40,134 nt of DNA. Origin: a filamentous cyanobacterium CCP2 (GTDB lineage: Bacteria; Cyanobacteriota; Cyanobacteriia; Elainellales; Elainellaceae). Each line of letters opens with the position of its first letter. Within the stretch, counting starts at the first letter, position 1. The translations under genes and the position numbers were made by a program. Under the pieces are notes generated by a model. It saw only the letters and a list, made by a program, of their open reading frames with translations, was not told the DNA's origin and searched no databases. Shown in pieces: positions 2,632 through 29,927 of this stretch. Location of the stretch: contig PVWD01000023.1 in the NCBI GenBank assembly GCA_003003615.1, positions 1 to 40,134 on the forward strand. The letters are read 5' to 3'.

Positions 2632-3561
2632 TTAGATCACTATACTTGCTCTTTTGAATAGAGCTTTGCTCCGTTGACGAATCCGCTTCAACCCATACTT
2701 GACAACATTCAGTTGGTAATTAAACACAGTTTGCCAATTCGTTCGGATTTGCCGGACTTCTCCTGTCGTAGCCCAGACTTTCAACCTCTCAACCTCACGG
2801 TGATAGACAGGATGTTCACTCCAAATATAAGCAAAGTGAACCACTGCGGGAGAAACGGCCCGCGAACCTTTCTTGAAGGTACACTTTCCGGCTAATGCAT
2901 CCATCTTGAGCTTGCCTCTCAGTCCAACAGGAGTTCTCATAATACTGCCATTGTCTTGAAATATGCTTTGCTGATGCATCTCCATTGATGTTGCTAGGAT
3001 TGGCTCTTCATTTGGCCCATCACCGCGAAACTCGGCGAATCCTAATTTGTCAAAATCTCGTAGGATTTCTCGGGCTGTTTTGTAAATAGAGCGAGCTGTA
3101 TCACTATCATCAAAATAGTAAATGCCGCCGTTAAATTTGGGTAATTTGCTCAATCTAAAACTTTTCAGAATGAAATCAACATTCAGGTAAGGATCTTTGT
3201 CGCCTGGCTTTAGGTGATATTTTCCACCCACCACTGCGAAGTTCTTTTCTGCAAAGGATTCAAAAACAAAACCAAGATCGCGAACAACAATACAATCGCT
3301 ATCAATAAACAGAGTTCGTGCGTAAGGGGAATACTGATCAAGATGAATTTTCTGCCTTACGTTTGAACCATATTCGGGCTTGTAAGGAATAAGCTGATCA
3401 AAGAGTTCCGCCAATTCTTTATCGTCTTGGCGATCGGTGACAATTGCCCGTGGAATATTTGGCGAATGGAGAAGCAAGGAACGCCCAAGCGTTTTTGCCA
3501 TTTCAATATATTTGGGTGCTCCATAAGCAAGGGTAATAATACCCTTTTCCATAGAAATCAT
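2632..3561 (-). CDS. GT8-like nucleotide-sugar glycosyltransferase
   Basis: Probable GT-A fold glycosyltransferase that adds one sugar to the growing repeat unit in the cytoplasm. It opens with a strand typical of the GT8 superfamily (GIITLAYGAPKYIEMAKTL), has the metal-binding DxD at residues 87-89 (TLFIDSDCIVV), the FNGGIYYF strand that matches the family's FNxG segment, and a late VVHFA segment. The acceptor and donor cannot be read from sequence. A GGAG seven bases before the ATG at 3561 supports this start; an in-frame ATG three codons later is less well spaced. It is the last leftward gene and converges on the Wza-like gene across a shared terminator. Its 5' side is a ~600-base spacer that carries repeat copy 1. 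Confidence 0.75.
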   Translation of the reverse strand: MISMEKGIITLAYGAPKYIEMAKTLGRSLLLHSPNIPRAIVTDRQDDKELAELFDQLIPYKPEYGSNVRQKIHLDQYSPYARTLFIDSDCIVVRDLGFVFESFAEKNFAVVGGKYHLKPGDKDPYLNVDFILKSFRLSKLPKFNGGIYYFDDSDTARSIYKTAREILRDFDKLGFAEFRGDGPNEEPILATSMEMHQQSIFQDNGSIMRTPVGLRGKLKMDALAGKCTFKKGSRAVSPAVVHFAYIWSEHPVYHREVERLKVWATTGEVRQIRTNWQTVFNYQLNVVKYGLKRIRQRSKALFKRASIVI

Positions 3562-4147
3562 ATTCTTACTCCATAAAGACTGCGCAAACTGACGTTAGAA
3601 TTCGATTCGTTCTCTACCGTTGGCCCTGAGGCAACCTCTCAATATAGAGACGATTTAAGTGGTAAAAGTTCTGATTACATGCCCTGCATCGGTGGAGGTA
3701 GTAAGTTGAAAAAACGTCCTTGCACAAAGGGACTTTGACTTTCCAAACATTGCTCCTCATAGAAGAAAATAGCAACTAGTCGGAAAAATATAAGGAAGAA
3801 AAAGGGGGTAAGACGAGTGGAAAACGGGGGGAAATCGGGGGTAGGCTTAGCTTAACAGATTGATCTCTTGTCTGCAACAGACAAATTGTTGACCGTGGGA
3901 TGCATGTCCTGTAGTCAACATTTACTGACAAACCGGAACGTTAATTAGTTAGCTGTTTTACCGTAGAAAGACAAACAATTTTCCTGCTTAATAAAGAAAC
4001 AGGATGAACACTAAGGATAAATTGTCTAATCTTCTGAAACTGCTATACAAAACGATAACGGAATTCTAATCTACGCTAGAAAAACCATTACTCAGATAAG
4101 AAATATACTTCTTTCCACTGCTCCTAATTCGTAAGAGCCAGCTGGGA
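3562..4147. other. Spacer upstream of the GT8-like gene, mostly repeat copy 1
   Basis: No credible coding region. Bases 3562-3750 contain no motif I recognise beyond the ribosome binding site of the GT8-like gene. Bases 3767-4140 are copy 1 of the dispersed repeat, and the insertion sequence starts at about 4148. Any promoter for the GT8-like gene should be here. Confidence 0.7.
3767..4140. repeat. Dispersed ~370-bp non-coding repeat, copy 1
   Basis: Matches 7801-8173 in the same orientation. The first ~166 bases (3767-3932) align without gaps at an offset of 4034 with only about seven differences; the remainder is more diverged (roughly three-quarters matching by eye). Conserved parts: three G-runs (3804-3808, 3826-3831, 3837-3841), a perfect hairpin TTGTCTG-CAA-CAGACAA (3868-3884), a second hairpin with GTTGAC/GTCAAC arms around ATGCAT (3888-3919), and a CCTG...CAGG motif near 3990. 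It contains no conserved ORF. It ends just before the left end of the insertion sequence. It could be a small mobile element, a structured RNA, or a duplicated intergenic region. Confidence 0.9.
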
Positions 4148-5400
4148 GGGTGACAAGGAGGTTACAACATCGAGCGAATCAGCGCCATAGCCTGGCCCCG
4201 TTGATGAAACAAGCGTTTTCCGGGTGAAAGTGCCAGCAGTGTCTCTACGGTTGCTTGGTAAGATTGCTCAAAGTTCACCCAAGCATAGGCATATAAACCA
4301 ACATAAAAATGACTGTGACGCAAAGACGCACCAACGACATCTTTTGACCTGGCAACGTATTTGTCAAGCTTGAGTTGCCACAGTTTCTTGCCTTCAAAGG
4401 TCGCTGCTCCATAGGCTAAAGTCATCGCCAATAGTAACGCCTGCAAGCGAGTTCCGCTCAAGCCCGTTTCTTCCAAGTGATAGCCACCGCCTTTGCAATC
4501 TCTAAACATCGCTTCGATGCCCATTCTGCGGCGATAGGCACTCATTGCCTCCTTAAAGCTGCCCAGATTCGTTAACACAAACCAGCCTTCTTTAGCACGT
4601 CGCTTACGGTATTGTCTCTTCCAGTAGGCTGCTAAATTTCATCCTCCAAAGCCGTGAGACTTGGTGACTTTGATGCCTTCAAAGTAAAGCATCATCCCAG
4701 GTGCTAATCCCAACTCGTTTAACTGCACCAAAACCCCGTCTTGGGTCTCAATGTATTCGTTGCATCGCAATCGTAAAGTGCAGTAGACTCGTTGGTGCTT
4801 CAGCCATCGCGCCAATCGTGCAGAACAAAACTCCCGGTCGCCCAGCACGACTACATCATAAGCTTTCAACTCGATTAAGGCTTTGAGCAATAGTGTCTTT
4901 TGTTGCTTGAAATTGCTACTGCCCAGATGGGGTAGGATGACCCAATAAAGGGGAATGCCCCGTCTATCTTTGATCCAGCTTACTGTCAGCAGATTGATGG
5001 ATTTCCACTGCGTTCGGTCGAGGGCAAGATAGACTCGTTGCAATTGAGGATGGCTTTGAGCGATCCACATCTGCCAAATCGGAAACCACAGCAGTTCCAG
5101 CTTTAATTGCGGTAGAGACAAAAAGCGTTGCAGCTTGCGTCGTCGGCTCTCTGCCAGAATCGGCAGGGGTAGGGTTGTAGCTAATGATTCGAGTTCAACC
5201 GTGCGCAGACTTTGTAACAGTTGGATCAGCAAGCTCAGTAATAGAAACTGAGCCAAACTCAATTGACCTTTGAGGTGAGTTTGGTAGAATTCAGGCATCT
5301 TTTTTAGATTAGGGGTCGGCGATATCAGCTTTGACCCTTTTTTTCTACCTCATTTGCCTGGACTTCCGATACTGCCTACCTTTAAACCTTTTTGTCACCC
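4148..5400. mobile_element. IS4-family insertion sequence, about 1.25 kb, inactivated
   Basis: Bounded by imperfect terminal inverted repeats. The left end reads GGGTGACAAGGAGGTT (4148-4163) and the right end, read inward on the minus strand from 5400, is GGGTGACAAAAAGGTT. It carries one transposase reading frame on the minus strand, broken by an in-frame stop. A target duplication could not be settled: GGGAG lies at 4143-4147 and GGGAG at 5405-5409, but the second is not adjacent to the inverted repeat. It inserted at the outer end of repeat copy 1. Confidence 0.85.
4162..5298 (-). pseudogene. IS4-family DDE transposase interrupted by an in-frame TGA
   Basis: Cut-and-paste transposase of the insertion sequence. 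Read from ATG 5298 the frame has the first catalytic Asp at codon 94 (LALDRTQW), the second at codon 154 (VVLGDREFCSARL) and, beyond the stop, the Glu at codon 262 inside a perfect YREK signature Y(2)R(3)E(6)K (YRRRMGIEAMFRDCK). The only lesion is TGA at 4639-4641 (codon 220, after SHGFGG). The frame on either side is the same, and the bases between the stop and 4578 translate well (NLAAYWKRQYRKRRAKEGWF), so this is a nonsense mutation, not a frameshift. The truncated product lacks the catalytic Glu and should be inactive unless the stop is read through. Confidence 0.88.
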
Positions 5401-5637
5401 CCTAGGGGAGAATCAGTAGTTATTGGACTGCTCATCAATCAATATGAGTTTGGATTATCTATCTAGTCGCCGATCCATACGTCTAGAACACTGCTGCAGC
5501 GGAGAATGTACCCCTACTAGATTCAATCTTCATTCCAAGGAGGTGGCAAAACGTGGCGCAGAGGCGTTCCTGAAACCATGAAGGCTTGGATGAGAGATGC
5601 TAACCAGAAACTATCGTTGCCGCTAAATAATCTCTAA
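5401..5637 (+). other. Short spacer with a possible C-terminal gene remnant
   Basis: Non-coding flank of the insertion sequence. An open stretch of about 38 codons (5522-5637, plus strand) begins right after a TAG, has no start codon, and ends with TAA immediately before the convergent stop of the 5638 gene. Its reading contains RGVPETMKAWMRDANQKL, which loosely recalls the C-terminal helix of some sulfotransferases (a Pro-Glu-Thr start and a late Asn-x-x-Leu). This is only a weak resemblance; it may be chance. Confidence 0.25.
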
Positions 5638-6474
5638 TCAGCTGTGATGAATTTCAAGTAAGCGAGAACGAATATATTCCCGTTCACCGTCATCAAATAA
5701 TTTGAAGAACTTGTTGGAATTGTCTTTTGAAATTGACTGATAGACAGTGGATTTCCAAGGTTCACTGTCAAGCACAATGCTTTTTGCCGCTGATTTGCGG
5801 TTTTGCATCATACTTTGATCAAATTCAACACCCAAAAAGTCACAAAGCTTCTCAAGGATTGCCTGCGGGTTGTTGACTAAGTTTTCGTAGACTACCAAGA
5901 TATGATTAGGTTGATGCGAGTAGCGTTGGCTAATTTGGATACTACTGTTCCAGCTTGTAATACACTCGTCTATATCCAGGGCACGCCCCCACTGTTCAGG
6001 ATATTGATTAGTTGCTTCATAGAGCGAGGCAACAACATCCTCTCCCTGACGGATGATGTGAATAAATTTTGCGTCTGGTATAACCTTTGTGATGTAGTCG
6101 ATATAGCGTAAATGTCCAGGGGTTTTTTCAATCCATATACTTTTACCTTGTTCTTTCGTAAAGTCGTCCAGAATCTGAGTAAAGGCTCGAACATATTGGA
6201 GGTTGAAGAGACCGAATCTTGGCAAATACTGCTTTCTATTCTCTTGTCCAATGTTACGAAGCAGAGACTTAAGCCGACCTCTTCCCCGGCGCGAAATGAA
6301 TTCTAATCTTCCTAAAGTTTCATTCCAAAACTTACTTTTGAAGCTAAGGTGCTTAAAAAAATGAGTTTCAGGAACCGATGCAATTTGTGGATGTGCTGCG
6401 AGCAGACTTTGAAGCAGAGTCGTCCCAGAGCGGGGGCAACCAACGAGAAAAACTCTTGATTTCATTTGATCCAT
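5638..6474 (-). CDS. Sulfotransferase family protein (Sulfotransfer_3-like)
   Basis: Predicted to move a sulfuryl group from PAPS to an acceptor, here probably a sugar hydroxyl of the exopolysaccharide. The 5'-phosphosulfate-binding loop is at residues 12-19 (GCPRSGTT, followed by LLQSLLAAHP). A WIEKTPGHLRYID segment near 114-126 and the 3'-phosphate-binding strand IHIIRQGEDVVAS at 138-150 fit the stand-alone bacterial family. The C-terminal part (LVVYENLVNNPQAILEKLCDFLGV) is the usual helix-turn that follows. Length of 278 residues is normal. No strong ribosome binding site precedes ATG 6474; an ATG three codons later is an alternative. It is one of four divergent sulfotransferases in the locus, and lies 115 bases downstream of the next one. 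Confidence 0.9.
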   Translation of the reverse strand: MDQMKSRVFLVGCPRSGTTLLQSLLAAHPQIASVPETHFFKHLSFKSKFWNETLGRLEFISRRGRGRLKSLLRNIGQENRKQYLPRFGLFNLQYVRAFTQILDDFTKEQGKSIWIEKTPGHLRYIDYITKVIPDAKFIHIIRQGEDVVASLYEATNQYPEQWGRALDIDECITSWNSSIQISQRYSHQPNHILVVYENLVNNPQAILEKLCDFLGVEFDQSMMQNRKSAAKSIVLDSEPWKSTVYQSISKDNSNKFFKLFDDGEREYIRSRLLEIHHS

Positions 6475-6588
6475 ATCTAGAATACGAATATCTTGCAGTG
6501 CTAAATCAGCTAATTTCGGTTAACTAGTTTGAGCACTTAGTCAATGCTTGGCGGCCAAATTTTACTTAACTATAAAAACAAATGAATT

Positions 6589-7428
6589 TCAACTATCAAA
6601 TTGGTATCCTTCTAGAAATTCAAAGTTCTTTGCCTTTAATTCAACCAGTCGGATCAGATCGTTTGTCCAATCCACATCAAGCCGACTCTTATGAGGAGAA
6701 TTTTTGACAATGCTGGCACAATCTCGCAAATATTCACTTGTATAGTCGATATCCAAAAATTCAATTAGTTGCTTCATTCCCATCTGTGGATCTTCAACAA
6801 ATGTTTCATGCCGAATGTCTATAATTTCGGTCTCATCAACCATTTCTTTGATATCAGCAACCCCTTGACATAAGAAGAAATATACCTCAATTGCTTCAGA
6901 AAGAGATTTGCTACTTCTACTACACCTCCTATAAATGGTACTGATATTGTCGTAGGGATTTCGTAAAACGTGGATAACCTTTACCCTAGTCTTTAGTGTC
7001 GACTTTAGCTTTTCAAGCAGACTTGGATTTCTTGCCAATCTCTCTGTAGTCACCCTACCCTTCTTATCACCAATTACACACAACTCCTTAAAACTTCCTT
7101 GATACTGATTAGGAACAACATACTTGTAATCAGTCCATTCTCTACCATTCTGCGTAAAGTTCTTATCATTCCTTAGAATCAATGAGAAAAGCTGATTTTT
7201 GCTGAAGCCAGATTCGAGAAACCCCAAAGCATCTAGCTCATGAGAAATGACCGCATTGGGATGAGCATCTAGTAAAGAACCCAAAAGGCTATGTCCACTT
7301 CGTGGGTAACCGATAAACATACAGTATGTTCCGATGCTATTGAATAAACTTCGATTTCTGAAGCCTTCATACAGCGACGTTAGATAAGCGAGCTTCTTAC
7401 CTTTTTGCTCATATCTGTAAGCTGTCAT
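6589..7428 (-). CDS. Sulfotransferase family protein, second
   Basis: Predicted PAPS-dependent sulfotransferase. From ATG 7428 the PAPS loop is residues 40-47 (GYPRSGHS, then LLGSLLDAHP), with a VIGDKKG segment near 119-124 and the 3'-phosphate strand VIHVLRNPYDNIS at 151-163; ETFVEDPQMGMKQLIEFLDI matches the conserved late helix. A Ser-His replaces the usual Thr-Thr/Ser after the Gly of the loop, a known variant in this superfamily. The start is chosen at 7428 because GGAGGAG lies eight to ten bases upstream; a GTG at 7437 sits directly on that site and is unlikely. Sequence is clearly different from the 5638 gene outside the motifs, so the two probably act on different positions or sugars. 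Confidence 0.87.
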   Translation of the reverse strand: MTAYRYEQKGKKLAYLTSLYEGFRNRSLFNSIGTYCMFIGYPRSGHSLLGSLLDAHPNAVISHELDALGFLESGFSKNQLFSLILRNDKNFTQNGREWTDYKYVVPNQYQGSFKELCVIGDKKGRVTTERLARNPSLLEKLKSTLKTRVKVIHVLRNPYDNISTIYRRCSRSSKSLSEAIEVYFFLCQGVADIKEMVDETEIIDIRHETFVEDPQMGMKQLIEFLDIDYTSEYLRDCASIVKNSPHKSRLDVDWTNDLIRLVELKAKNFEFLEGYQFDS

Positions 7429-7504
7429 TACTTTCACTCCTCCTAATTAGAAACAGCAATATAACTATCATCTACAACAATCGTGGCGTGGCTCAACAGT
7501 ATAA

Positions 7505-7796
7505 AGTCACTATATCGATGAACACAGATTCAATAAAAAAGCTATTCAGAAGCATCTTCTTGCGAGACCAGTTACTTTAAGGGGAAGTATTGCTTATTCA
7601 TTTAACGCCGATCCATCTAATTACTGTCACTGGGTGTGGCGGACGCTGTCAATGCTCAGAACCAACAATGAGCTTTACGGATTAGATGCAATAGACTTTA
7701 CCTGTATTGGTCAATCTCCATTTGCAAATTCTTATCAAGAAAGTCCAGTACAAGCAGACACTCCCCTGCAAAAAGCGATCAAACACGCTCCTTATG
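7505..7796 (+). pseudogene. Fragment of a GT61 (DUF563) glycosyltransferase gene
   Basis: About 97 codons in one frame, opposite in strand to the neighbours, without a start codon and preceded by an in-frame TAA at 7502. The reading closely follows the middle of the intact GT61 gene at 16096-17292. IDEHRFNKKAIQKHLLARP aligns with IDEHSIQFNKLPIRKKVLSKA, DPSNYCHWVWRTLSMLR with DPSNYYHWMCRTLPLLR, and GLDAIDFTCIGQSPF with GLDAIDFFYVGQSPF. Similarity continues through QESPVQADTPLQKAIK and stops at the edge of repeat copy 2, where the frame runs into a TAG at 7811. The conserved His-Trp pair of the family is kept. Neither terminal part of the enzyme is present, so it cannot be active. It is a relic of a second GT61 gene, not a recent exact duplicate. 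Confidence 0.88.
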
Positions 7797-7800
7797 GAAA

Positions 7801-8173
7801 AAATAGCAACTAGTCGGAAAAAAAAAAGGAAGAAAAAGGGGGTAAGACGAGTGGAGATCGGGGGGAAATCGGGGGTGATCTTAGCTTAACAGATTGATCT
7901 CTTGTCTGCAACAGACAAATTGTTGACCGTGGGATGCATGTCCTGTAGTCAACATTTACTGACAAACAAGAATGCTGATCGATTGGCTACTTTACCGTAG
8001 AAAGACAATAAATTTTCCTGCTCAGTGAAGAAGCAGGACAAGTCCCAAAGATAAATTGAGCCAATCTTCTAAAACTGGCACACAAAACGAAAATGGACTT
8101 CTAATCTACGCTAAAAGAGCCGCTACTCAGATGAAATATATTTCCTTCCACTGGTCTCAATTCCGCAAGCTCC
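7801..8173. repeat. Dispersed ~370-bp non-coding repeat, copy 2
   Basis: Same orientation as copy 1 at 3767. It keeps the G-runs (7838-7842, 7860-7865, 7871-7875), the perfect TTGTCTG-CAA-CAGACAA hairpin (7902-7918), the GTTGAC/GTCAAC hairpin (7922-7953) and a CCTGCT...AGCAGG hairpin near 8025. It starts exactly where the GT61 fragment loses homology and ends about 15 bases before the stop of the convergently placed lyase gene. Weak similarity to copy 1 may reach leftward to about 7785 (GCTCCT). Confidence 0.9.
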
Positions 8174-8187
8174 ACGAGAACGAGAGT

Positions 8188-10485
8188 TCAACTTTCATCT
8201 GCAACAACCAGGTCTAGGCTTGATGTGCCGGCTGGAATATTGATTGTAATGGAATCATCAGTTGCTTGAACGATCGGCGCAGGAGAACCATTTATATAGG
8301 CTCCTCTAATCGTCGGGTAATACAGGGTCAGCCTTTGGGCGGTTGGAGAGACAACTTGACCGGACCCCTCGCGGAGGTAGAGGGCAAGATCTTGCTCAGC
8401 TTGAAATCCTTTTCTGCCCAAATCTGCATCATATTCAAACGATCTACCCACAGCATAAACAGCCCGCAAATCAGTTCCTACCAGCCGAAATAATGACCGA
8501 GATGCTTGAAAGGCTGCGTTGTCGATTGGCTCTACTGCATTGGGGTCTGATTCAACAATGTAGTCAATCACTCCATCACCATGATCGACCTTCGCACCGG
8601 AATAATACTCTCCCCTAATTTGCTCCAATTCAGGTTTCTGATGATCGTGATCGGAAGGCACAAGTACCGTGACGATTTGCTTCTTCCCAGAGCTACGGTT
8701 GTATGATGCGTAAAGATATTGGTTCTCAATATCTGGGCCAGCAATCACCCCGTTATGTAGTGTGACATCATCAGGCGGTGTTCCTAAAAATACGGTCAAA
8801 TCTACATCAGTGATCTCGGTGTCTTCATAGTTCACAATATCGGCTTGATATTCTGCTGGAGAAGCTTGATTGAGTGTTCTAGCGTAGGGATGAAAGGCAA
8901 GATGAACCTGATTTCCGCCTGTAAATTCATCGATTAAAAACCAGTAGCCGTGCTTGCCGTCAGATGGGTGAACAAAGTGAAAATTGCGAAAATGTTGACC
9001 GTTCGGCAGAGCTTCCCCAGAATCACCTCTAGCATAGTCAAAGGTTGGTGTAAGTAACCATTCTTGAATTCCGGCACCATGCTTGTATTGATGATCATTT
9101 TCTTCAGGCGGATTGCCTTCTTGTGTGCGATCGAATTGGTAATCAATTAAACCTGTATTTCCTGATACTGCTCGATCGTGAATGTAATCCCAGGAAAAAT
9201 TGCCAACTCCTCTGCGCCAGCCTTTATAGCCAGAGTTGGAGAGCAAATGCGCTCCGTAGCCACTAAGGAAAATGGCATTGGTTTCCTTATGGGAGTGTCC
9301 GCTGGAGTGGGTAGGGTTCCACATTGCTCCGGCAAGTGCCTTGCGGGACTGCTGGTTTTCCAGAAACCACGCCCCTCCATCTGGAAAGACCCGGCTTGGC
9401 GGCACTACTTTCACCGATAGATCAGGTACTTCATCTGCCATCAAAATGTAAGTTAATAACCTACCATTTGGATGCATTGCAGCATTTCCAGAGGGCATTC
9501 TATGCCCATCCTGCATTTGCCAGGTCGCATACCGGCGCGTAAACTCACCGAACCGATAGGCTCGATAAGGTTGCGTACTGCAATTGGCAGGAGTGTGTCG
9601 GCTGCCTCCTAAAAGATAGAAGTTTGGCAGACTATCGCCAAAAGCCATTGTCCTGAAGTCGGGGGTATGGGAGTATCCGTAGAGCCATTCGTGCAGCTTG
9701 ATAAATTGCTCGTTGGTATAGTAGTTATGATGTCCCTGGTATTCCCAGACATCCATGCCCAAGGCTTTATGTTCGCGACTGCAACTCCCAATGCGTTCAG
9801 CAGCATATCCGGTGCCTGGCGTGTAAACTCCATCAATAGTAATGTCTACAACCCAGGATTCATCATATTGTTGAAGTTCTTGTTCAAATTTTGAGGTATC
9901 TCTTTCATAAAATGCCCACAATGCTGATACAGAGTGATTGGCTGGGCCCCAGTTATCTCTGAAGCCGTTGACCAGTTGGGCAATATCTGTCTCCAGGGTA
10001 GAGCGTTCATGAGCAGGCAATTCGCGATAAATAATATCGAGGGCTAAGATTGCGTTGAAAATTCCACCCTGAAATGGAACGGTTGTATCCCAGTTGTCTC
10101 GCTCTTTCCGCTCGCTCAGCATATCTGGTAAGGCAACGTTCAGCGTTTCTTGAATTTTATCGACGTAGCGTTCTTTGTTTGCTGAATCGAGAATATACGC
10201 AAGGGCAGTATATCCCATCATATCTCGCAGCTTATAACCTGCCCCCCGGCCATTGTCTTCTTCCGGATCATAGGTTAGCTCTTGCGCCTGTTGAATTGCC
10301 TCCAATCGCATTTCACTCCAGGGAAGCCGATTCGCTCGATCGCGCAATTCCGGGTAGTCAGATTCTCGAACGATCAAGAAGGGATGCCTTGCCGTATCTG
10401 CATGCGCTGCGATAAACACAGCAAATATCCATGTGGCAATAAAGCATACACAAAGCACAATTTTTCTTGCAGTGGATTGCCTCAT
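8188..10485 (-). CDS. Secreted heparinase II/III-like polysaccharide lyase
   Basis: Probable extracytoplasmic eliminase that cleaves a uronate-containing polysaccharide. Residues 1-29 form a signal peptide (basic start, long hydrophobic core, cut near AAHA/D). Residues of about 40-380 are helix-rich and look like the alpha/alpha-toroid domain, with NHSVSALWAFYERD and EYQGHHNYYT as candidate substrate-binding segments. From about 400 the beta-rich heparinase II/III-type part begins with SGHSHKETNAIFLSGYGAHL, equivalent to the family's HxHxD/E signature. Beta-strand-rich sequence continues to the C-terminus. The length of 765 residues fits two-domain lyases of this group. It sits among biosynthesis genes, which suggests trimming, release or turnover of the locus's own polymer, as lyases in alginate-type clusters do. 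The true substrate is unknown. Confidence 0.78.
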   Translation of the reverse strand: MRQSTARKIVLCVCFIATWIFAVFIAAHADTARHPFLIVRESDYPELRDRANRLPWSEMRLEAIQQAQELTYDPEEDNGRGAGYKLRDMMGYTALAYILDSANKERYVDKIQETLNVALPDMLSERKERDNWDTTVPFQGGIFNAILALDIIYRELPAHERSTLETDIAQLVNGFRDNWGPANHSVSALWAFYERDTSKFEQELQQYDESWVVDITIDGVYTPGTGYAAERIGSCSREHKALGMDVWEYQGHHNYYTNEQFIKLHEWLYGYSHTPDFRTMAFGDSLPNFYLLGGSRHTPANCSTQPYRAYRFGEFTRRYATWQMQDGHRMPSGNAAMHPNGRLLTYILMADEVPDLSVKVVPPSRVFPDGGAWFLENQQSRKALAGAMWNPTHSSGHSHKETNAIFLSGYGAHLLSNSGYKGWRRGVGNFSWDYIHDRAVSGNTGLIDYQFDRTQEGNPPEENDHQYKHGAGIQEWLLTPTFDYARGDSGEALPNGQHFRNFHFVHPSDGKHGYWFLIDEFTGGNQVHLAFHPYARTLNQASPAEYQADIVNYEDTEITDVDLTVFLGTPPDDVTLHNGVIAGPDIENQYLYASYNRSSGKKQIVTVLVPSDHDHQKPELEQIRGEYYSGAKVDHGDGVIDYIVESDPNAVEPIDNAAFQASRSLFRLVGTDLRAVYAVGRSFEYDADLGRKGFQAEQDLALYLREGSGQVVSPTAQRLTLYYPTIRGAYINGSPAPIVQATDDSITINIPAGTSSLDLVVADES

Positions 10486-10523
10486 TTCTATGGATGTGAT
10501 GAGTAGAGGTGAGTAGACACCAA

Positions 10524-11630
10524 TTACCGAATTGGTTCTTCCTCTAGGGCTGAGCGATAGATTTTAAGCAGAGAATTACAGTAATTGTGAATATTAAGTG
10601 GTTCGACTCGCTTTCTAGCGTTTTCTCCAATCGTAAATCGCAGTTCCTCATTTTCGATCAAAGCAGTGAGTGCTGAGGCAATCTGTTGCACATTCCCTGG
10701 TTCCACCAGAATTCCGTCTTTGCCCGTAGTCACAAGTTCTGGAATGCCGCCAACGGGTGTTGTAATCGAAGGTAATCCCCAACCCATAGCCTCTAATAAA
10801 GCCAATGGCAACCCTTCATTGCGAGTTGGCAAAACAAAAACATCGGATTTAGCCAAGTAGGTATCCCGTTGCTCTGGATTTAACCAGTCAAGAATGGTGA
10901 CAAACTCCGACAGATTTAAACGTTGAACTTGCGCCCGTGCTTTTTCCACCTCTCCATCTCCTGCAATGGTAAGGTGCGCCTCAGCCTTTCGCTGATCTGA
11001 AAGCGTTGCAAATGCCTCAATTAAATCAAAGGCTCCTTTACGTTGCCCGATTCTTCCCAAAAATAAAACGTGAATTGGTTTTGCTACCGAACGACTTGGA
11101 ACATGCTCTGGCAACTGAACCGGATTCGGCAAAACCACCACCTGGAAATCATCCAGGTTCAACCGAGTCATATAGTATTTCTTCCAGCTTTCCGACAGCG
11201 CAATGAAATGAGCGCACTTTTGGTAAACCCAGCGGATAACCTGTTGTTTTGGTTGGGGAAGATTGTCAAAGAATACATGAAACTCACTACTTTGGGCGTG
11301 CAAAACAACTGGCTTACCATAGGCTCTAACAATCAGCGTTAGAATTGCTTTCCTCCAAGCACTTCCCCTTTGTGAAAGCAGAATATGCACAACATCTACT
11401 GGTTTAGTTGATAGTATCCAGATTGTTTTGAGTACGGCAAAGAGAAATAATTTAATCCTAAATAGCACTGAACCATAGTCGTGGGTCGCAATATGAGTGA
11501 TTTTTAGTTCAGAAGGCGCATGAGCCACAACCAGATTTTCAACAGTGGCCATTCCGCCCATCTGTTCTAATGCTGGTCCCAACATCATGATTTTGAGCGG
11601 CGGTGTGTCGGTTTGAGTTTGGCTTTCCAT
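10524..11630 (-). CDS. GT4-family glycosyltransferase
   Basis: Cytoplasmic GT-B glycosyltransferase. It has the N-terminal Rossmann start KIMMLGPALEQMGGMATVE, a middle boundary VLFLGRIGQRKGAFDLIEAF at the start of the donor-binding domain, and the EX7E motif EGLPLALLEAMGWG followed by LPSITTPVGGIPELV. The frame extends upstream to a TTG at 11672, but the ATG at 11630 has a GAGG nine bases ahead and leaves no extra leader, so 11630 is chosen (368 residues). It lies about 68 bases downstream of the polymerase gene and reads in the same direction, so both are probably in one operon. A perfect 7-bp hairpin (10519-10536, loop ACCG) straddles its stop but has no U-tract. Confidence 0.9.
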   Translation of the reverse strand: MESQTQTDTPPLKIMMLGPALEQMGGMATVENLVVAHAPSELKITHIATHDYGSVLFRIKLFLFAVLKTIWILSTKPVDVVHILLSQRGSAWRKAILTLIVRAYGKPVVLHAQSSEFHVFFDNLPQPKQQVIRWVYQKCAHFIALSESWKKYYMTRLNLDDFQVVVLPNPVQLPEHVPSRSVAKPIHVLFLGRIGQRKGAFDLIEAFATLSDQRKAEAHLTIAGDGEVEKARAQVQRLNLSEFVTILDWLNPEQRDTYLAKSDVFVLPTRNEGLPLALLEAMGWGLPSITTPVGGIPELVTTGKDGILVEPGNVQQIASALTALIENEELRFTIGENARKRVEPLNIHNYCNSLLKIYRSALEEEPIR

Positions 11631-11697
11631 GATATTTTGCCTCTGCAATTTCAAATAGGAACTTCCAATCAAAAGTCTGTTTCGCAGATCGCAGGCT

Positions 11698-12960
11698 CTA
11701 ATGGGCAGGTGATAGGGTGTGAATCATCTCTGTTGGTTGATGTCTGCGAATGCGGCGTAGCTCAACAACAGCAGACGTAGAGAAGGATACATATAGTATC
11801 CAGAAAAAGTGGTCTTTCAGGATCGTAATGCCAACGCTATATTGGGATGAAATCATAATGATCAGAAACAAAAACATCCAGAAAAATTCCGAAGATTGTG
11901 TCAAGTTAACAAGGCGGAACAGTCTGACTAAAGTTGTTATTGAAGCAATTGTAAATAAAATCAAACCAGGAAAGCCAAAGTGGAGTAACAGATCGATAAA
12001 GCCGCTGTGAGCATGGCTCGGAAACCAAGCAACGAAGCGATTTCCTAAAGCAACCTGCTCAGGATCGTTCCAGAATGCTTCATAGCCAAATCCTAACAAG
12101 GGACGTTTTGCAATCTGTTCCAAGAGATACTCCCAAACTTGAGCACGCCCATTGAGCGTCAAGCTTTTTCCAAGTACATCTACAATAATGTACTCAAGAT
12201 TGCTAGAAACCCATACTGTCAAGCTAGTTCCTGCCAGTAGAGCAAGCGTTTGCAGCAAAACTTTTGTTCGGTAAGCTTGCAAGAATGAGCGGTAGAGCGG
12301 TAATAGCATCAGCACGCCGAAGCAGATGGACAGGGAGGACTTAGCTTGGGTGAGAATCAGTGTGGTCAGAGCGAGACCAAACATCAAGAAGCAAAACCTC
12401 TTCCTTTTTTGTCCGTAGAGCGTGAAGGTGATGAAGTATGTTGTTGCCAAAGCCATCATCAACCCAAGGTAATTTTTATGCGGAAAAATGCCTCGCCACT
12501 CTCCTCCCAACATTTTCCCATAGGATGAAACTCCCAAAGCAGTGAGTAAACTGAAAACAGTAAATAAACCAAGTGACCACCCAACCAAACGTATAAGTTC
12601 CTTCGGGCGATAACGACTTGCCAAGTAAAGCCCAAATATCGTTGAGCGAATTACAACTCTTAAGAAACGGCTCTGAGTTATTTCAGGTCTAATCGACCAA
12701 GTAATTGAGAATAAAGGAAGTAGTAAGAGTATTAACAAGGCCTTATTTGTAGTCAAAAAATAAAGAATCTTCTTCCAATGCCGGAGGAAGGAGATTACAA
12801 TAAATAGGTAGTAAAGAGCGACTAAAGCTCTATCAATCACTCCAAGAATTGCAGGAGCACCAGTCCTGGCTGAAAGATTTGGATCAGCAACATACATTAA
12901 GAAAACGACAGATATTATCGGTTCCAGCCTTTCCCAAATCTTTGAGATAGAGCGATTCAC
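11698..12960 (-). CDS. Wzy-type O-antigen polymerase/ligase family membrane protein
   Basis: Integral membrane protein with about ten to twelve hydrophobic segments, predicted to polymerise lipid-linked repeat units at the outer face of the inner membrane. Family hallmarks are present: GGEWRGIFPHKNYLG in the middle, the large periplasmic loop with NGRAQVWEYLLEQIAKRPLLGFGY, and SHAHSGFIDLLLHFGFPGL before the last helices (Wzy_C/ligase superfamily, EpsE/ExoQ type). It starts with GTG at 12960; a GGGAG seven bases upstream supports this. It is the only polymerase in the window and therefore the natural partner of the Wza/Wzc pair at the left edge. Confidence 0.88.
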   Translation of the reverse strand: MNRSISKIWERLEPIISVVFLMYVADPNLSARTGAPAILGVIDRALVALYYLFIVISFLRHWKKILYFLTTNKALLILLLLPLFSITWSIRPEITQSRFLRVVIRSTIFGLYLASRYRPKELIRLVGWSLGLFTVFSLLTALGVSSYGKMLGGEWRGIFPHKNYLGLMMALATTYFITFTLYGQKRKRFCFLMFGLALTTLILTQAKSSLSICFGVLMLLPLYRSFLQAYRTKVLLQTLALLAGTSLTVWVSSNLEYIIVDVLGKSLTLNGRAQVWEYLLEQIAKRPLLGFGYEAFWNDPEQVALGNRFVAWFPSHAHSGFIDLLLHFGFPGLILFTIASITTLVRLFRLVNLTQSSEFFWMFLFLIIMISSQYSVGITILKDHFFWILYVSFSTSAVVELRRIRRHQPTEMIHTLSPAH

Positions 12961-13041
12961 GGTAATACTCCCATTTTTTCAGCATTCAAAAAGGATTTGT
13001 AAAAATTGTGAAAGATAAACTTTGTTAGTAAAAGTTTTAAA

Positions 13042-13078
13042 GGGCAAATCTGACAAATTCAGCATCCTCACTTTGCCC
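13042..13078 (-). terminator. Candidate terminator at the end of the 13068 GT4 gene
   Basis: GGGCAAA and TTTGCCC arms (13072-13078 and 13042-13048) with a 23-nt loop, followed on the minus strand by TTTAAAACTTTT. One arm lies inside the last codons. The U-rich tail is interrupted, so termination may be partial, and the polymerase gene starts only about 80 bases further. Confidence 0.4.
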
Positions 13079-14342
13079 CACTGTATGATTTGGCTGATAA
13101 AAGGTCATTGAATAAGGATAAGTAGCGACGGGCGGGAGTTTCCATTGTGAAAGATTGTTCAATTCTCTGCCGTGCCGAAGTTGACAACCGTTGATGTCGT
13201 TCCTGATTTTCCATCACCCAAAGTATTCCTTTCGTCAAGTCATCAATTTGGTAGGGGGTAGCAAGATAACCATTTTGTTGATGAACGATTAGATCGGGCA
13301 TTCCGCCGATGGCAAACGCAACGCAAGGCAATCCACAGGCAAGTGCTTCTAAAACAGTGTTCGCCAGATTTTCCTGAATGGAAGGAGCAACGAAAACATC
13401 AGCCGCTGAATAGAGTAATGCCAAGGAAAGATCGTCATTTAATTGACCTAGATAGCGGCATCGAAATCCAAGTTCGGGCGGTTTTTCGGGTTGAGAGGCA
13501 CCGAAAACAATGAGTTCAACCGCATCATCAGGTAGCAATTGCCGCAAATTCTGCAAAGCAGGCTGCAACAAATGAAACCCTTTCCGAGGATCACTAGTTG
13601 AATTTACAGCACCAAAGAGAATAAGTTGTTTGTCCTGCGGTAAATTCAGCAAGTTTCGGGACAGTTGGCGATCGAACGGTCGATATTGCCGCGTATCGAT
13701 GCCATTTGGAATGACCTCAATGCGAACATCGCGAAAGAGAGAACTAGCGGCTGCACAGTCTGCCAACCAAGAACTAAGGGCAACGATAGTTAGGTTCAAA
13801 TTTTTCCAGGCTTTTGCTTTACGTTTCCAGACCCATCGGGACAAGTCCCAATCCTGACGGCTCCCTAGTTGAGGACAAGAACCACAGGAGTTAGTGTAGT
13901 GCTCGCAGTCGAAATTGTAGTGACATCCTCCTGTAAAAGCCCACATATCTCGGAGTGTCCAGACAATCGGCTGTTGAAACTGAGAAAGGGTTTCAATTTG
14001 TAAGTACCCTTGGCAAATCCAATGAAGATGGACAATATCTGGATTAATTTGGGTAATGGCTGGCGTGAGTTTATTGGGCAACCACTGTAAGGAATAAGAA
14101 CTCTTTTCGCGTTGACGATAGAGCTTAAGCGGCAGGCGATCGAGTACAACGCGCATTCCTGCAACCACTTGCCCGGCTCCTGAGCTACTTTTTGAACCTA
14201 TTACTGTTGTGTCATCACTATGTTTTGTTTGCACTAACATGCGAGAATCAATCCCGATTGCTCGGAAGCTACGATGGAGTCGATAAGCAGCACGAGTAGA
14301 ACCTGAACCAGCATCTTCAGTACTCAAGAGCAATGCCTTCAT
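13068..14342 (-). CDS. GT4-family glycosyltransferase, WcaC-like subgroup
   Basis: Cytoplasmic GT-B enzyme for repeat-unit assembly. It begins KALLLSTEDAGSGSTRAAYR, then has the subgroup's marker WTLRDMWAFTGGCHYNFDCE with the spaced cysteines Y-x-C-x2-C-P (SCGSCPQLGS), which may bind a metal or form a structural knot. The donor domain opens with LILFGAVNSTSDPRKGFHLL and carries EX7E in ENLANTVLEALACG followed by LPCVAFAIGGMPDLI. The ATG at 14342 is preceded by AAGGA at a normal distance. Length of 424 residues is typical. Substrate cannot be assigned. Confidence 0.9.
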   Translation of the reverse strand: MKALLLSTEDAGSGSTRAAYRLHRSFRAIGIDSRMLVQTKHSDDTTVIGSKSSSGAGQVVAGMRVVLDRLPLKLYRQREKSSYSLQWLPNKLTPAITQINPDIVHLHWICQGYLQIETLSQFQQPIVWTLRDMWAFTGGCHYNFDCEHYTNSCGSCPQLGSRQDWDLSRWVWKRKAKAWKNLNLTIVALSSWLADCAAASSLFRDVRIEVIPNGIDTRQYRPFDRQLSRNLLNLPQDKQLILFGAVNSTSDPRKGFHLLQPALQNLRQLLPDDAVELIVFGASQPEKPPELGFRCRYLGQLNDDLSLALLYSAADVFVAPSIQENLANTVLEALACGLPCVAFAIGGMPDLIVHQQNGYLATPYQIDDLTKGILWVMENQERHQRLSTSARQRIEQSFTMETPARRYLSLFNDLLSAKSYSGAK

Positions 14343-14440
14343 AGTTGTCCTTGTGATTAGAGGAAGACTTAAACATTCTTGTCATCAAACAGCAAAGAAA
14401 TTTACAGCCAAGTTGTAATCTAAGCCTAAAAGCTGACCGA

Positions 14441-15313
14441 TTAATATTGATAGCCGACTGCGCCTGCAATGGTTCGCGTTATTTCTTCGATGTATTTCCT
14501 GTCTACTTCTAGCAGTGCCTCTCCTCTCGTTACTTTCCCTTGTCTAACAAAAGCAGTCTTCTGAGTTTTTACAAGATAAGCTGACTTGTGAATGATTTCC
14601 GACTGTCTCATATTTTCCTTAGAACTAAGTTTGACCGCCTCTTGTAATTCGCAATCGGTCAAACTCAGCCCAATAAGATCCATTACCCTACGGAGTTGCT
14701 CATACGGGTTATCAATGAGGTGTTCGTACAATAAAATCTGAATGTTTTGACTCGAATTTTTTGTAAAAAACCATGACTCCGTATGCTTTGCCCATGCACT
14801 TGCTCCAAACTTTGAACTGCGAACAAATTGCGACAAATCCCACTCATCCGGTATCTTTTCGTAGTTTTTAAGAAAATGATAGTAGGAGATAAGCGCATCT
14901 CTTGGATCTCTAACTAACAAAATGACTCTATAGTAGTAAGGATTATAAACACTGTGACTCTTGATAATTCTCGGAACATCGAGCCGTCCAAATGTTCCAG
15001 TGGATTGAATACGTCTAGAAAGCTGAATGTCTGGAACAATGTCATGGATTGAGAAAAAATTGACTTGGCGTTCAAGATTAAATTTGATCTTGATAGCATT
15101 TGCAACTAGAAACCTTAACCATGTGTTTCCAGATTTGGGAAAAGACACAAGATAAATATCTTCAAGCTTGTAGTCTTCAGGCAAAAGATTCTGATGTTTT
15201 GCTCCTAGCAAATTCCATCCAGTCTTATTTTTGGCAAAATTGAATCTACTTGCTGAAATTGGTAATAAGGATTTAATTCGATAGATCATTTGAGCTAAAC
15301 TCGACTTAATCAC
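14441..15313 (-). CDS. Sulfotransferase domain protein (PF00685-like), third
   Basis: Predicted PAPS-dependent sulfotransferase closer to the classical cytosolic type. The PAPS loop is residues 58-65 (FPKSGNTW, then LRFLVANAI), and the 3'-phosphate strand is RVILLVRDPRDALISYYHF at 129-147, with a conserved IKSHSVYNP segment just before it. The late region LLYEHLIDNPYEQLRRVMDL and the C-terminal VRQGKVTRGE (the RxGxxGxW-like 3'-phosphate contact, here degenerate) complete the fold. It starts with GTG at 15313, overlapping the stop of the next sulfotransferase by eight bases, which points to translational coupling; an ATG at 15289 would shorten it by eight residues. It carries an ~50-residue N-terminal extension before the loop. 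Confidence 0.88.
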   Translation of the reverse strand: MIKSSLAQMIYRIKSLLPISASRFNFAKNKTGWNLLGAKHQNLLPEDYKLEDIYLVSFPKSGNTWLRFLVANAIKIKFNLERQVNFFSIHDIVPDIQLSRRIQSTGTFGRLDVPRIIKSHSVYNPYYYRVILLVRDPRDALISYYHFLKNYEKIPDEWDLSQFVRSSKFGASAWAKHTESWFFTKNSSQNIQILLYEHLIDNPYEQLRRVMDLIGLSLTDCELQEAVKLSSKENMRQSEIIHKSAYLVKTQKTAFVRQGKVTRGEALLEVDRKYIEEITRTIAGAVGYQY

Positions 15314-16073
15314 TTCTAGAAATTATTTGAAGCTGACGATAGAGTTTCAGTGCTGCATCAACTTCGTTGGCATGATCTAATTTCATCTGCTCAACCTGTT
15401 CTGAGGGAGCAGAACGAAATGCTTTGTGCGAAAAGACCTTGCTAAAGTCAATTGACTTTAGCTCAAAACCAAACTTCTCTATTACTTTACACCGTAAGCG
15501 ATCGGGATCGTGGATAATTTCGTCTATATCAAAAACAACACATACATTTGCATTATGGCTACAAAATCTGAGAATTTGCTGATTATAGACGTTCCAAACT
15601 CTTATACCGTTAATTGCATTTCGAGAAATGTGCTTTTCGTGATCTCGTCGCAGAAGCGAGTCAACCACAGATAGAGGATGTCGCACTAGAAGCAAGTAAT
15701 GCAAATCCTCAATCATTTCACCCCAAAAATCTAAGAACAACGTACTTCTAGGATCTTTCCATCCCCACTGTGAAAAAAAAGCTCTTGACTTGACAATCCT
15801 ATTCGCCACTTCTCTATCTTTCTTGCCCACGCAAACAGGTATCCTGAACGATCGGGTAGGAAAATCACCAATAAATTTATTCTTCAAGATCCGCTTGTGA
15901 AAATTGGTGAACTCGCGATCCTCGTGGTGTCCACCGTAATAATTTCGAGACGAGTTTAACGCCGAAGAGGTCAAATCGCTTCCTATATGAAGTCCACATT
16001 CCCCTAAATACTGAGCAGCAAGTGAAGTGCCGCTACGATGCATCCCAGTGATCATTAAAACTTTAGATACCAT
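15306..16073 (-). CDS. Sulfotransferase family protein, fourth
   Basis: Predicted sulfotransferase with PAPS loop GMHRSGTS at residues 10-17, WGWKDPR at 103-109 and 3'-phosphate strand YLLLVRHPLSVVDSLLRRD from 127. The conserved GGHHEDREFTNFH segment (48-60) marks the subgroup that includes many stand-alone bacterial proteins next to glycosyltransferases. The start is set at ATG 16073 because AGGA lies about ten bases upstream; a GTG at 16082 is too close to that site. It is followed by the third sulfotransferase with an eight-base overlap and preceded by the GT61 gene after 22 bases, so the three form a tight operon unit: add a sugar, then sulfate it twice (inference). Confidence 0.85.
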   Translation of the reverse strand: MVSKVLMITGMHRSGTSLAAQYLGECGLHIGSDLTSSALNSSRNYYGGHHEDREFTNFHKRILKNKFIGDFPTRSFRIPVCVGKKDREVANRIVKSRAFFSQWGWKDPRSTLFLDFWGEMIEDLHYLLLVRHPLSVVDSLLRRDHEKHISRNAINGIRVWNVYNQQILRFCSHNANVCVVFDIDEIIHDPDRLRCKVIEKFGFELKSIDFSKVFSHKAFRSAPSEQVEQMKLDHANEVDAALKLYRQLQIISRSD

Positions 16074-16095
16074 CTTTACCACATCCTTAACAAAG

Positions 16096-17292
16096 TCATG
16101 AAAATATTTGCTTACAAAGCTGTTTCAGCTTGTGAATATCTATGTAAAGATCAAAATGATGGGGATCAGTATGGGTTTGAATAATCTCTTCCCCTTGCAA
16201 GTAGGAATAATCAGCTTTTCCATAATTAGAAAGCACATAGTAACAACTATTAACAAACCCGTAGGGAAATAGCTCAATTACTTTAGTTTTTGGCTGAATA
16301 AATAGTAAATTGGTCAGTGCTGCTCCATGTGGAGCAACAATTGCCTCCGAATTAGAAAATATCTTTACTTGCTCCTGCAATGTTTTACCATCCATCGACA
16401 CTACTTTAAATCCATACTCCTTAAGCAAGCTGATGACTTCTGTTTCATTCATTAATCTTCTGCGCTGCACATTACCTCTAGCAACATAAATACGTTCCTT
16501 GCCATAGTTTGACTTTAATTCCTCCTGAAATAGGTTTCTGCTAAATATATAGCTTTTCTCAATAATGGGGGCAGAACCGTAATGGCGCGATCGGTTGATA
16601 ATTGCTGCGATAATTCTATCGGCAGTGCAAGCTCTTTGAATCACCCTTTCCAAGGGTACTCCTGCCCGAATTAAACTCTCTCTATGAAAATCACAGAATG
16701 GGGACTGTCCAACATAAAAAAAATCAATTGCATCTAAGCCATGCCATTCATCATAAATTCTTAATAACGGTAGAGTGCGGCACATCCAATGGTAGTAATT
16801 AGACGGATCTGTATTGGATAGGTAAGCAACTCGCCCCTCTAGTGAAACCGCTTTTGAAAGAACTTTTTTTCTTATAGGTAGCTTATTGAATTGAATGCTA
16901 TGCTCATCAATAACATTCATTCCATCATCTAAAAGATGATTGTTCCGCAAAGAAAAATTTTTATTCCTGATATCTAATAGAACGATTTCTGCTTCTACTT
17001 TAATAGGAGAAATTGATTGCAGTTCTTGCTGATCGACGCAGCGTGCAGGTTTTGTATAGAAATGGTTTACCTCCAAAACGGAGTTCACTTTGATATTATC
17101 TCTCCCTTTCCTTACCATTTTTTCAGCATTAGCAGCAGTCAATGGAACATAACTATTGCAAACAAAAACTCCCAGAGCTTTGAAAAGAGATGAAATTGGA
17201 CTTTTTCTCAAGTACTGAACCGCTAAAGCACTGAGCTTGCGCTTCAAGGAGAATGGTAATAAGTGTTGTGAAGGCTTTGGATTACTAATCAT
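16096..17292 (-). CDS. GT61 (DUF563) capsular-polysaccharide glycosyltransferase
   Basis: Family GT61 enzymes transfer sugars such as xylose or GlcNAc in plants and animals; bacterial members occur in capsule and exopolysaccharide clusters. Seen here: the central DPSNYYHWMCRTLPLL block (His-Trp pair near residue 168), the nucleotide-binding-like GLDAIDFFYVGQSPF, an ERIYVARGNVQRRRLMNE strand-loop, and the diagnostic AIVAPHGAALTNLLF near the C-terminus. The frame reaches a TTG at 17310; the ATG at 17292 is preferred, though no clear ribosome binding site is visible for either. A truncated relative lies at 7505-7796 on the other strand. Base composition is A/T-richer than the genes on the right side of the locus. 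Confidence 0.87.
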   Translation of the reverse strand: MISNPKPSQHLLPFSLKRKLSALAVQYLRKSPISSLFKALGVFVCNSYVPLTAANAEKMVRKGRDNIKVNSVLEVNHFYTKPARCVDQQELQSISPIKVEAEIVLLDIRNKNFSLRNNHLLDDGMNVIDEHSIQFNKLPIRKKVLSKAVSLEGRVAYLSNTDPSNYYHWMCRTLPLLRIYDEWHGLDAIDFFYVGQSPFCDFHRESLIRAGVPLERVIQRACTADRIIAAIINRSRHYGSAPIIEKSYIFSRNLFQEELKSNYGKERIYVARGNVQRRRLMNETEVISLLKEYGFKVVSMDGKTLQEQVKIFSNSEAIVAPHGAALTNLLFIQPKTKVIELFPYGFVNSCYYVLSNYGKADYSYLQGEEIIQTHTDPHHFDLYIDIHKLKQLCKQIFS

Positions 17293-17365
17293 AAGAGTAT
17301 GCACTATCAATCAAAGTTGAATCATCTTTTTTAGTTTCACGTATCTTTGTTAAATCATTGGATTA

Positions 17366-19159
17366 TCAAACTTTCTCTGCAACAACTTCCTCATAGCTTC
17401 CAACTTGAACTACTTCTCCATTATCCATTACATAAATGCGATCGCAGTGCTCAATCGTAGAAAGCCGATGAGCAATGATAATCATTGTTTTGTGTCCAGA
17501 CAAAGCCTGAATTGCTTCAGTTACCAAGTTCTCTGTCTCATTATCCAAAGCAGAAGTTGCCTCATCTAGCACCAAGATTTCTCGTTCATGGTATAGGGCT
17601 CTAGCAATGCCAATGCGCTGTCGCTGACCACCGGACAACCTTACCCCACGCTCACCAACATATGTTTTCACTCCATCTGGTAGTTGCCTGACTAAATCGT
17701 CTAGCTGAGCTGCACGAATTGCCCCTTCTAATCTCTTTTGGTCAACCAGTTCTGAAGCAACTCCGAAAGCAATGTTTCCCTCAATCGTATCATCCGTTAG
17801 AAAAATAGATTGGGGGATGTAACCAACTAAGTTTTGCCATGCACGAAGACGTTGATAAATAGAAACACCATCGACGCGGATATCCCCTCTTTCAGGCTCC
17901 AAGAGTCCGAGAATAACATCGACCAATGTCGTCTTGCCAGCTCCAGATTTACCAATTAAGGCAATTGATTCTCCTTTATTAATTTTCAAAGAGATATCCT
18001 TGACAGCAGCCTCATCCGCTTGAGGATAACGATATGTTATGCGATGTAGCTCAATCTCATTGCTGAAGAACATTGTCTGGCTGCGATAGAGGTGAGAAGA
18101 ATTTCTGTCCATACCGCTTTTTAAGTTAAGTTCCCTTTCGGCATCCAACTTCTCAATCTCCTTTAAGTCAAAGCACAGCATGTCAAGAGCATATGCAGAA
18201 ACTTGCAAATTTCCAATTGCTTGAAAAAATTGGCTGGTTGAAGGAATCAAGCGGATTGAAGCAACAGCGAAAACTCCCAAGACAGATGTTAGGTCTTGTT
18301 CTAGATCCCTTAAAGCAAAAGCAGATACAAAAAAAACGATCGAGATGACCAAGGCCGTCTCCAACATGATGCGGGGTAACAACTGGGATGACTGAAACAG
18401 TGTTGCAGAATCCTCAAGAATTTGTGTCTGCTTAATCATTTGTTTCTGAAAATACGGCTCACACCCTATCACACGGGTCTCTTTGAAGCCTCCTAAGGAG
18501 TGATTAATAATCTTAATAATTTCTTTCTGCGACTCCGATGTTCTCTTACCCCACACTCTTGTTCTCTTACCAACGAACTGAAATATCAGCACCAAAGGCA
18601 AAAACGTTAATAAAAGCAGTCCCAAAAACAGGGCACTTGTTCTAAGAAGCAAAATTAAAAGAACGATAGTAACAACGAGATTGGAGATCGCCTGCAAAAG
18701 CTGCAAAAGGCATTGATTGCAAAACTTATTTGTTTCAACAACAATATTGTTAATGAGAGTGGATGTATTTTTGTTGGTGTGAAAGGTGTAAGGAGCAGAT
18801 AGATAGGCACTTAACAATCTTGTACACAGCCTGCCCTTTTGATCGAAGCTGAATTTAATGATGTAGGTTCGGGCAAGAAAATAGATGAGGGATTTGAGAA
18901 CAAAGACGATCGCAATTGCCAGACCTAACAGAGCAATGAATTGTTCAGGCGACCTGATGTTGAGTTGGGAGTAGATGCCGTTTAGCCACTCATTTTGGAG
19001 GATGTACTCCGGCTCAGAGGCCACGGTAATAAATGGGCCAATGAGTCCGATTCCTAGAGCTTCTAGAACGGAGGTTAGGATAAATGTAAGCATCAAGAAA
19101 AACAGGTGTTTCCTTGAGCCTGAGAGCGCGTATAGAACTTTTGAAAGATACTTTATCAC
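17366..19159 (-). CDS. ABC exporter (fused permease-ATPase), PglK/MsbA-like
   Basis: Half-transporter with six membrane segments (residues about 15-310) fused to an ATPase domain. Motifs: Walker A GKSGAGKTT at 403-411, Q-loop GYIPQSIFL, signature LSGGQRQRIGIARAL from 508, Walker B ILVLDEATSALD at 528-539 and the H-loop IIIAHRLST. The arrangement GVRLSGGQRQRIGIARAL and the long linker resemble PglK, which flips lipid-linked oligosaccharides. Since no Wzx-type flippase is visible in the window, this protein is a good candidate for moving the repeat unit across the membrane; lipid or small-molecule export is the alternative. It starts with GTG at 19159. A long imperfect palindrome separates it from cysC upstream. 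Confidence 0.85.
   Translation of the reverse strand: MIKYLSKVLYALSGSRKHLFFLMLTFILTSVLEALGIGLIGPFITVASEPEYILQNEWLNGIYSQLNIRSPEQFIALLGLAIAIVFVLKSLIYFLARTYIIKFSFDQKGRLCTRLLSAYLSAPYTFHTNKNTSTLINNIVVETNKFCNQCLLQLLQAISNLVVTIVLLILLLRTSALFLGLLLLTFLPLVLIFQFVGKRTRVWGKRTSESQKEIIKIINHSLGGFKETRVIGCEPYFQKQMIKQTQILEDSATLFQSSQLLPRIMLETALVISIVFFVSAFALRDLEQDLTSVLGVFAVASIRLIPSTSQFFQAIGNLQVSAYALDMLCFDLKEIEKLDAERELNLKSGMDRNSSHLYRSQTMFFSNEIELHRITYRYPQADEAAVKDISLKINKGESIALIGKSGAGKTTLVDVILGLLEPERGDIRVDGVSIYQRLRAWQNLVGYIPQSIFLTDDTIEGNIAFGVASELVDQKRLEGAIRAAQLDDLVRQLPDGVKTYVGERGVRLSGGQRQRIGIARALYHEREILVLDEATSALDNETENLVTEAIQALSGHKTMIIIAHRLSTIEHCDRIYVMDNGEVVQVGSYEEVVAEKV
17438..17445. repeat. HIP1 palindrome
   Basis: GCGATCGC, the highly iterated palindrome of cyanobacterial genomes, inside the ABC exporter gene. 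Others are at 2262, 30418, 35231 and 37603; all five fall in coding sequence. Confidence 0.85.
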
Positions 19160-19187
19160 TGCATCTTAGCCCTGTCTTTTCATTAAG

Positions 19188-19319
19188 ATAGCTGACTGAA
19201 TTAATGGATAGAATTTAATCATTTACTCTCCAGCGAACTAAGTACCTAAGCAATGTAATTAGCGAATTTTCCCCAGAAGAAAATGTTGTTAATTTCTACA
19301 CCATCTATCAGTCAGCTAT
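19188..19319. repeat. 132-bp long imperfect palindrome between cysC and the ABC exporter gene
   Basis: The outer 12 bases of each end are perfect inverted repeats (ATAGCTGACTGA at 19188-19199 against TCAGTCAGCTAT at 19308-19319). Pairing continues imperfectly inward (ATGG and TAGAA-TTAA blocks, then CATTT-CT), giving arms of perhaps 40-50 bases. There is no ORF. In the leftward transcript it would form a long hairpin between cysC and the exporter. A miniature transposable element or a processing/stability hairpin are the main readings. Confidence 0.7.
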
Positions 19320-19351
19320 ATTTGAGCCATGTTGTTGTATGAGCGGTGTTA

Positions 19352-19903: not shown

Positions 19904-20182
19904 TTTCAAATAACCTCTATCAACTTAATGTGAAACTCATGGGGATTCCCCTTTCAAGCAGCTTCAGTCAGGGGTAATACATACCGTTAGCAGTTTTAAA
20001 CCTAAAGAATTTGCATTTGGCTTGCTTAGACAACTTTGACGAATAGCTGTTAAAGTTGTTAAATTTGATGAAAATCATACTGAGTTTCCGTAAGAAATAG
20101 CTAGATAGCTGTGGTAACTTCATCTACTCTTTGCAATTCCTACTTAAGTATCCCGCAACTGAAAGTTAGGATATGTAGCCCG

Positions 20183-24923: not shown

Positions 24924-25000
24924 AGCGCGCCTCTTATTAACTGATTCAGTGAGTGCAAGGGCAGTTGTTCAAATCAATACGAGCTAAGGGGAAGAACCTC

Positions 25001-29916: not shown

Positions 29917-29927
29917 AAGAAAACTGC

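Follow-up and report, generated by a model that had tools for sequence, protein, structure and literature searches.

A two-copy noncoding repeat with an invariant hairpin core in a likely sulfated-polysaccharide cluster of the cyanobacterium CCP2

A noncoding repeat of about 385 bases is present twice, at a distance of 4,034 bp and in equal orientation, within a 40,134-nt stretch of DNA from the filamentous cyanobacterium CCP2 (contig PVWD01000023.1, positions 1 to 40,134, referred to below as the window). The most likely reading is an ordinary one, namely a private two-copy noncoding duplication of one genome. Our tentative explanation (probability roughly 0.45) is that a noncoding intercistronic segment was duplicated locally and that its hairpin core was kept as a cis-acting element. 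The ~385-bp segment, part of a sulfated-exopolysaccharide cluster, would have been copied once, in the same orientation and to a place ~4 kb away, as the accessory region around it, which contains an insertion sequence (IS) and a gene fragment too, underwent rearrangement. Each copy is placed between two successive genes of the minus strand and would be transcribed in the cluster mRNA or as the leader of the next gene. The core, most likely retained by selection while the rest drifts, may serve as an RNA hairpin, in a leader or between cistrons, or as a palindromic protein-binding site, and would set how strongly the sulfotransferase or glycosyltransferase-like gene downstream is expressed. 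Should the core act in this way, it would represent a proposed control point of this cluster at the RNA or operator level.

The repeat pair was aligned locally (same strand, 85% identity over 388 columns, E 4e-109), which bears out its existence and location as given in a preliminary description of the window; a scan of the window for further repeat pairs of this kind returned none. Homology of copy 1 may extend to 4141, at the IS start. The copies and their cores are:

3744-4130, no strand assigned: copy 1 of the repeat, delimited by the local alignment to copy 2.
7780-8163, no strand assigned: second copy (copy 2), lying 24 bp beyond the stop codon of the minus-strand heparinase-like gene 8188-10485.
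3846-3933, no strand assigned: invariant 88-bp core of copy 1, without any difference to copy 2.
7880-7967, no strand assigned: invariant 88-bp core of copy 2, identical to 3846-3933.

Over 385 columns, the alignment of the copies contains 56 substitutions (40 transitions, 16 transversions) and 5 gap columns. Divergence amounts to 8.6% in the left 93 columns (8 substitutions), 1.1% in columns 94-181 (a single substitution) and 23% in the remaining 204 columns (47 substitutions). The longest difference-free run, the 88 columns of the core, was matched in 0 of 20,000 permutations with the differences placed at random. Set beside the gap-free ~166 bases with about seven differences described earlier, the first ~180 columns hold about nine substitutions, and one gap close to the left edge. 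That the hairpin core is the most conserved part, and noncoding, was confirmed: the copies share no ORF of note, indels between them break any reading frame, their differences carry no period-3 signal, and a Pfam search with the small ORFs of the repeat gave no credible match. ARAGORN found no tRNA or tmRNA.

The most stable hairpins lie within the identical tract. Both hairpins of the preliminary description are present, and a further stem-loop lies in the more variable half:

3868-3884, minus strand: short hairpin with a 6-7 bp stem and a 3-base loop; 1 of 200 shuffles was as stable.
3885-3922, minus strand: second hairpin, with 8 bp, a symmetric internal loop and 3 bp; all but 1 of 200 shuffles folded worse.
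3982-4004, minus strand: 8-bp stem-loop, retained at 8016-8038 of copy 2 with changes from C-G to U-G and from U-A to U-G.

The short hairpin also folds on the plus strand, and on the minus strand it can fuse with the second into one long hairpin at about 3869-3933. A 70-base core was more stable than nearly all shuffles on both strands. The stem-loop 3982-4004 was scored as terminator-like, without a U run. As evidence for a functional RNA, these predicted structures are suggestive only.

The repeat is embedded in polysaccharide genes, with Wzc/Wza-like export genes at 1-2531 of the window. Copy 1 separates the IS from the gene 2632-3561, and copy 2 the heparinase-like gene from the second sulfotransferase gene. 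The neighbouring features are:

2632-3561, minus strand: putative glycosyltransferase-like gene, downstream of copy 1 on this strand; no Pfam match, homologues found.
4142-5406 (end approximate), minus strand: IS with a DDE transposase and TIR-like ends, starting 11 bp after copy 1.
5638-7437, minus strand: two sulfotransferase genes between the copies (5638-6474 and 6589-7437; Pfam PF13469/PF00685).
7514-7789, plus strand: interior fragment of a GT61 glycosyltransferase gene, corresponding to aa 134-227 of the intact paralogue 16096-17310 (minus strand), 51% identical.

The IS transposase (DDE_Tnp_1) is split into two frames, 4162-4638 and 4639-5349. A partial relative of the IS (279 bp, 84%) on contig C528 (33147-33425) has the same end sequence, so the IS beside copy 1 is an element separate from the repeat. 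The remaining parts of the fragmented GT61 copy were not found, the other side of the repeat included. The heparinase-II/III-like gene 8188-10485 has a Pfam score below the cut-off, and beyond it, likewise on the minus strand, follow glycosyltransferases, Wzy, two more sulfotransferases, GT61, an ABC transporter and an APS kinase. The region 5638-21976, which is likely a sulfated-polysaccharide cluster, was found to contain four sulfotransferases, the APS kinase and a sulfate/citrate-type transporter.

A syntenic cluster in a genome of the same family (G033) comprises a heparinase-like gene, GT4s, Wzy, a sulfotransferase and GT61. It has no counterpart of 2632-8187, the repeat is absent, and another gene follows within 60 bp after the heparinase-like gene. 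Compared with this genome (locus L023), the heparinase/GT4/Wzy/GT61 block and the 22448-31496 block stand in inverted orientation to each other (region 8188-31496), and the polysaccharide cluster has thus been rearranged. In four other cyanobacteria (G501, G043, G579, G545), loci with homologues of the sulfotransferase and glycosyltransferase-like genes that flank the copies are free of the repeat within about 1.5 kb on each side. The region is thus an accessory one that bears scars, and the suggested tie to sulfotransferase/glycosyltransferase genes is not conserved.

Further copies were sought at increasing distance. In the 6.95-Mb genome of CCP2 itself (528 contigs), blastn recovered exactly these two copies and none elsewhere, as did a covariance model with lax filters. 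There was no copy in 98 relatives (the compared genome set contains no second genome of the same genus), in 386 genomes of the phylum (few candidates scored per genome), in 388 genomes of the class scanned for the 35-base hairpin pattern with up to 3 mismatches, in plasmid and phage collections, in a viral collection (by a scan that needs exact words) or in GTDB contigs (exact 18-mer). Two covariance models, one per repeat half, gave nothing credible in 195 relatives, chance matches only. Several matches were rejected: blastn matches of 31-34 bp in three genomes (G150, G310, G355) are at about chance level for a 386-genome scan; viral hairpin matches and two 18-mer matches in GTDB contigs (Verrucomicrobia, Novosphingobium) show no further similarity; a covariance match of 29.5 bits in G487 runs antisense inside a helicase-like ORF with the 5' half unmatched and was put down to chance; and one in G014 is carried by a strong terminator-like hairpin. 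The repeat had been called dispersed, a term that does not apply, because the own genome has only these two nearby copies and none was found in the searched collections. The outcome is largely the one that the preliminary description had named as contrary to its proposals, with no further copies, a single local duplication and no compensatory changes in the stems.

A single local duplication explains the copy number, orientation, distance and absence elsewhere. Flank homology outside the repeat, past the IS and into the GT61 flank, was not significant (P 0.25 left, 0.15 right), and the duplication therefore has no visible wider unit. For a local duplication with a kept core speak the restriction to two copies, the lack of terminal inverted repeats and of target duplication, the missing counterpart of 2632-8187 in G033, the strongly uneven divergence and the coincidence of the 88-bp invariant core with the hairpins; against duplication stands the edge of copy 2, where GT61 homology is lost exactly at 7789, as would also be expected from insertion. 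That the hairpin core has stayed invariant suggests an element retained for its action in cis. Its position makes such a role in the sulfated-polysaccharide cluster plausible, since in Synechocystis the regions upstream of sulfotransferase and glycosyltransferase genes are bound by the activator XssQ (PMC8205485). Like the XssQ-bound regions of the synechan cluster (PMC8205485), the repeat is noncoding and lies upstream of sulfotransferase/glycosyltransferase-type genes in a sulfated-EPS cluster; unlike them, its sequence common to both copies has no exact match to the XssQ consensus AAGTTNNAC. This absence, and that of any promoter-like site common to both copies, argue against a cis element.

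The main neutral alternative to selection on the core is gene conversion between direct repeats, from which the uneven divergence could equally come. The repeat would then be a neutral local duplicate, its core and left half homogenised by conversion and without present function. The two direct repeats are only 4 kb apart, the identical tract adjoins a 23%-diverged part, and the surroundings are scrambled, with an IS and a gene fragment, all of which agree with such a history; we nevertheless consider it unlikely, as three levels of divergence (8.6, 1.1 and 23%) fit one conversion tract poorly and the identical tract is the very site of the most stable hairpins.

That both copies were inserted, as an orphan or non-autonomous mobile element with relatives outside the sampled genomes, is rather improbable. 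The sharp boundary at which copy 2 starts, exactly at the end of GT61 homology, is the sole feature favouring insertion; the reading is also compatible with the unrelated flanks of the two copies, with an accessory, IS-bearing region and with a fragmented assembly (528 contigs) that could conceal high-copy repeats. Cyanobacterial MITEs (reviewed in PMC10969869, citing Nezha) resemble the repeat in being shorter than 500 bp, noncoding, hairpin-forming and near an IS and a gene fragment, but the repeat differs from them in its lack of terminal inverted repeats and direct target repeats, and in forming no family. No terminal inverted repeats of the ~4-30 bp typical of MITEs were found, the best end-to-end inverted match being at chance level in both copies. 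The ends share no 6-8-mers that would indicate target duplication at either copy, a weak test since such repeats vanish in old copies. Where a MITE is expected in several copies at unrelated sites, there are two copies within 4.4 kb in the same orientation; a transposase is missing from the repeat, no transposase or family appeared in anything searched, and the other GT61 remainder is missing across the repeat. The small mobile element of the preliminary description is not supported as a dispersed one.

The other earlier proposal, a structured RNA, may hold at low probability: the hairpins do not vary between the copies, pairs in the variable half are broken about as often as expected and no Rfam family was recovered. 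A search of the window against Rfam 15 gave no match above the gathering score, and weak matches at E<=10 were rejected as chance. The longest predicted structure is:

3808-4126, minus (operon) strand: predicted closed fold of ~320 nt, a consensus from two sequences only.

On this strand, the fold of copy 2 has a z-score of -3.48, with 0 of 100 shuffles as stable, compared with -1.42 on the plus strand; for copy 1 the values are -1.49 (operon strand) and 0.39. The minus-strand consensus comprises 84 pairs, with a compensatory change in 1 and a one-sided compatible change in 11, and a consensus from two sequences is by construction selected for compatibility with both copies. One 18-bp long-range helix carries one compensatory and two wobble changes, and the closing helix two wobble changes. 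As the core is identical in both copies, stems there hold no changes, compensatory or otherwise. The plus strand yields a consensus fold much like that of the minus strand. The structure conservation index (0.71) is not above that of column-shuffled alignments (0.67, sd 0.05), and in the own fold of copy 2, 18 of the 30 pairs touched by changes are broken in copy 1, which is the chance expectation. It is accordingly very improbable that the repeat is an undescribed ~320-nt RNA acting as a riboswitch-like leader or antitermination element on the operon strand: the stability of copy 2 and the helices with compensatory or wobble changes speak for it, and the modest z-score of copy 1, the unexceptional conservation index, the similar plus-strand fold and the lack of any homologue or Rfam match against it.

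Some low probability is retained for this structured-RNA reading because the operon-strand fold of copy 2 is unusually stable and its core has not changed at all. Such an RNA, present twice in the mRNA of the sulfated-polysaccharide operon, would control sulfotransferase/glycosyltransferase expression in cis, a proposal that we rate as equally remote. The eps-associated RNA (EAR) of the Bacillus subtilis eps operon is an antitermination element of a polysaccharide operon that promotes readthrough in cis. By analogy, the repeat would be a possibly structured noncoding segment on the operon strand of a polysaccharide gene cluster; it differs from EAR-type elements in having no Rfam match, in occurring as two copies and in not being conserved in related clusters.

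The copies are also direct repeats on either side of two sulfotransferase genes, and recombination between them could delete or amplify this 4-kb module and thereby alter polymer sulfation. Two smaller observations concern the window. A perfect 22-bp palindrome (15441-15462) lies within a sulfotransferase gene, and the left part of copy 1 (3798-3843) contains three G-rich 13-mers (GAAAAAGGGGGTA-like), two of which are also found in copy 2.
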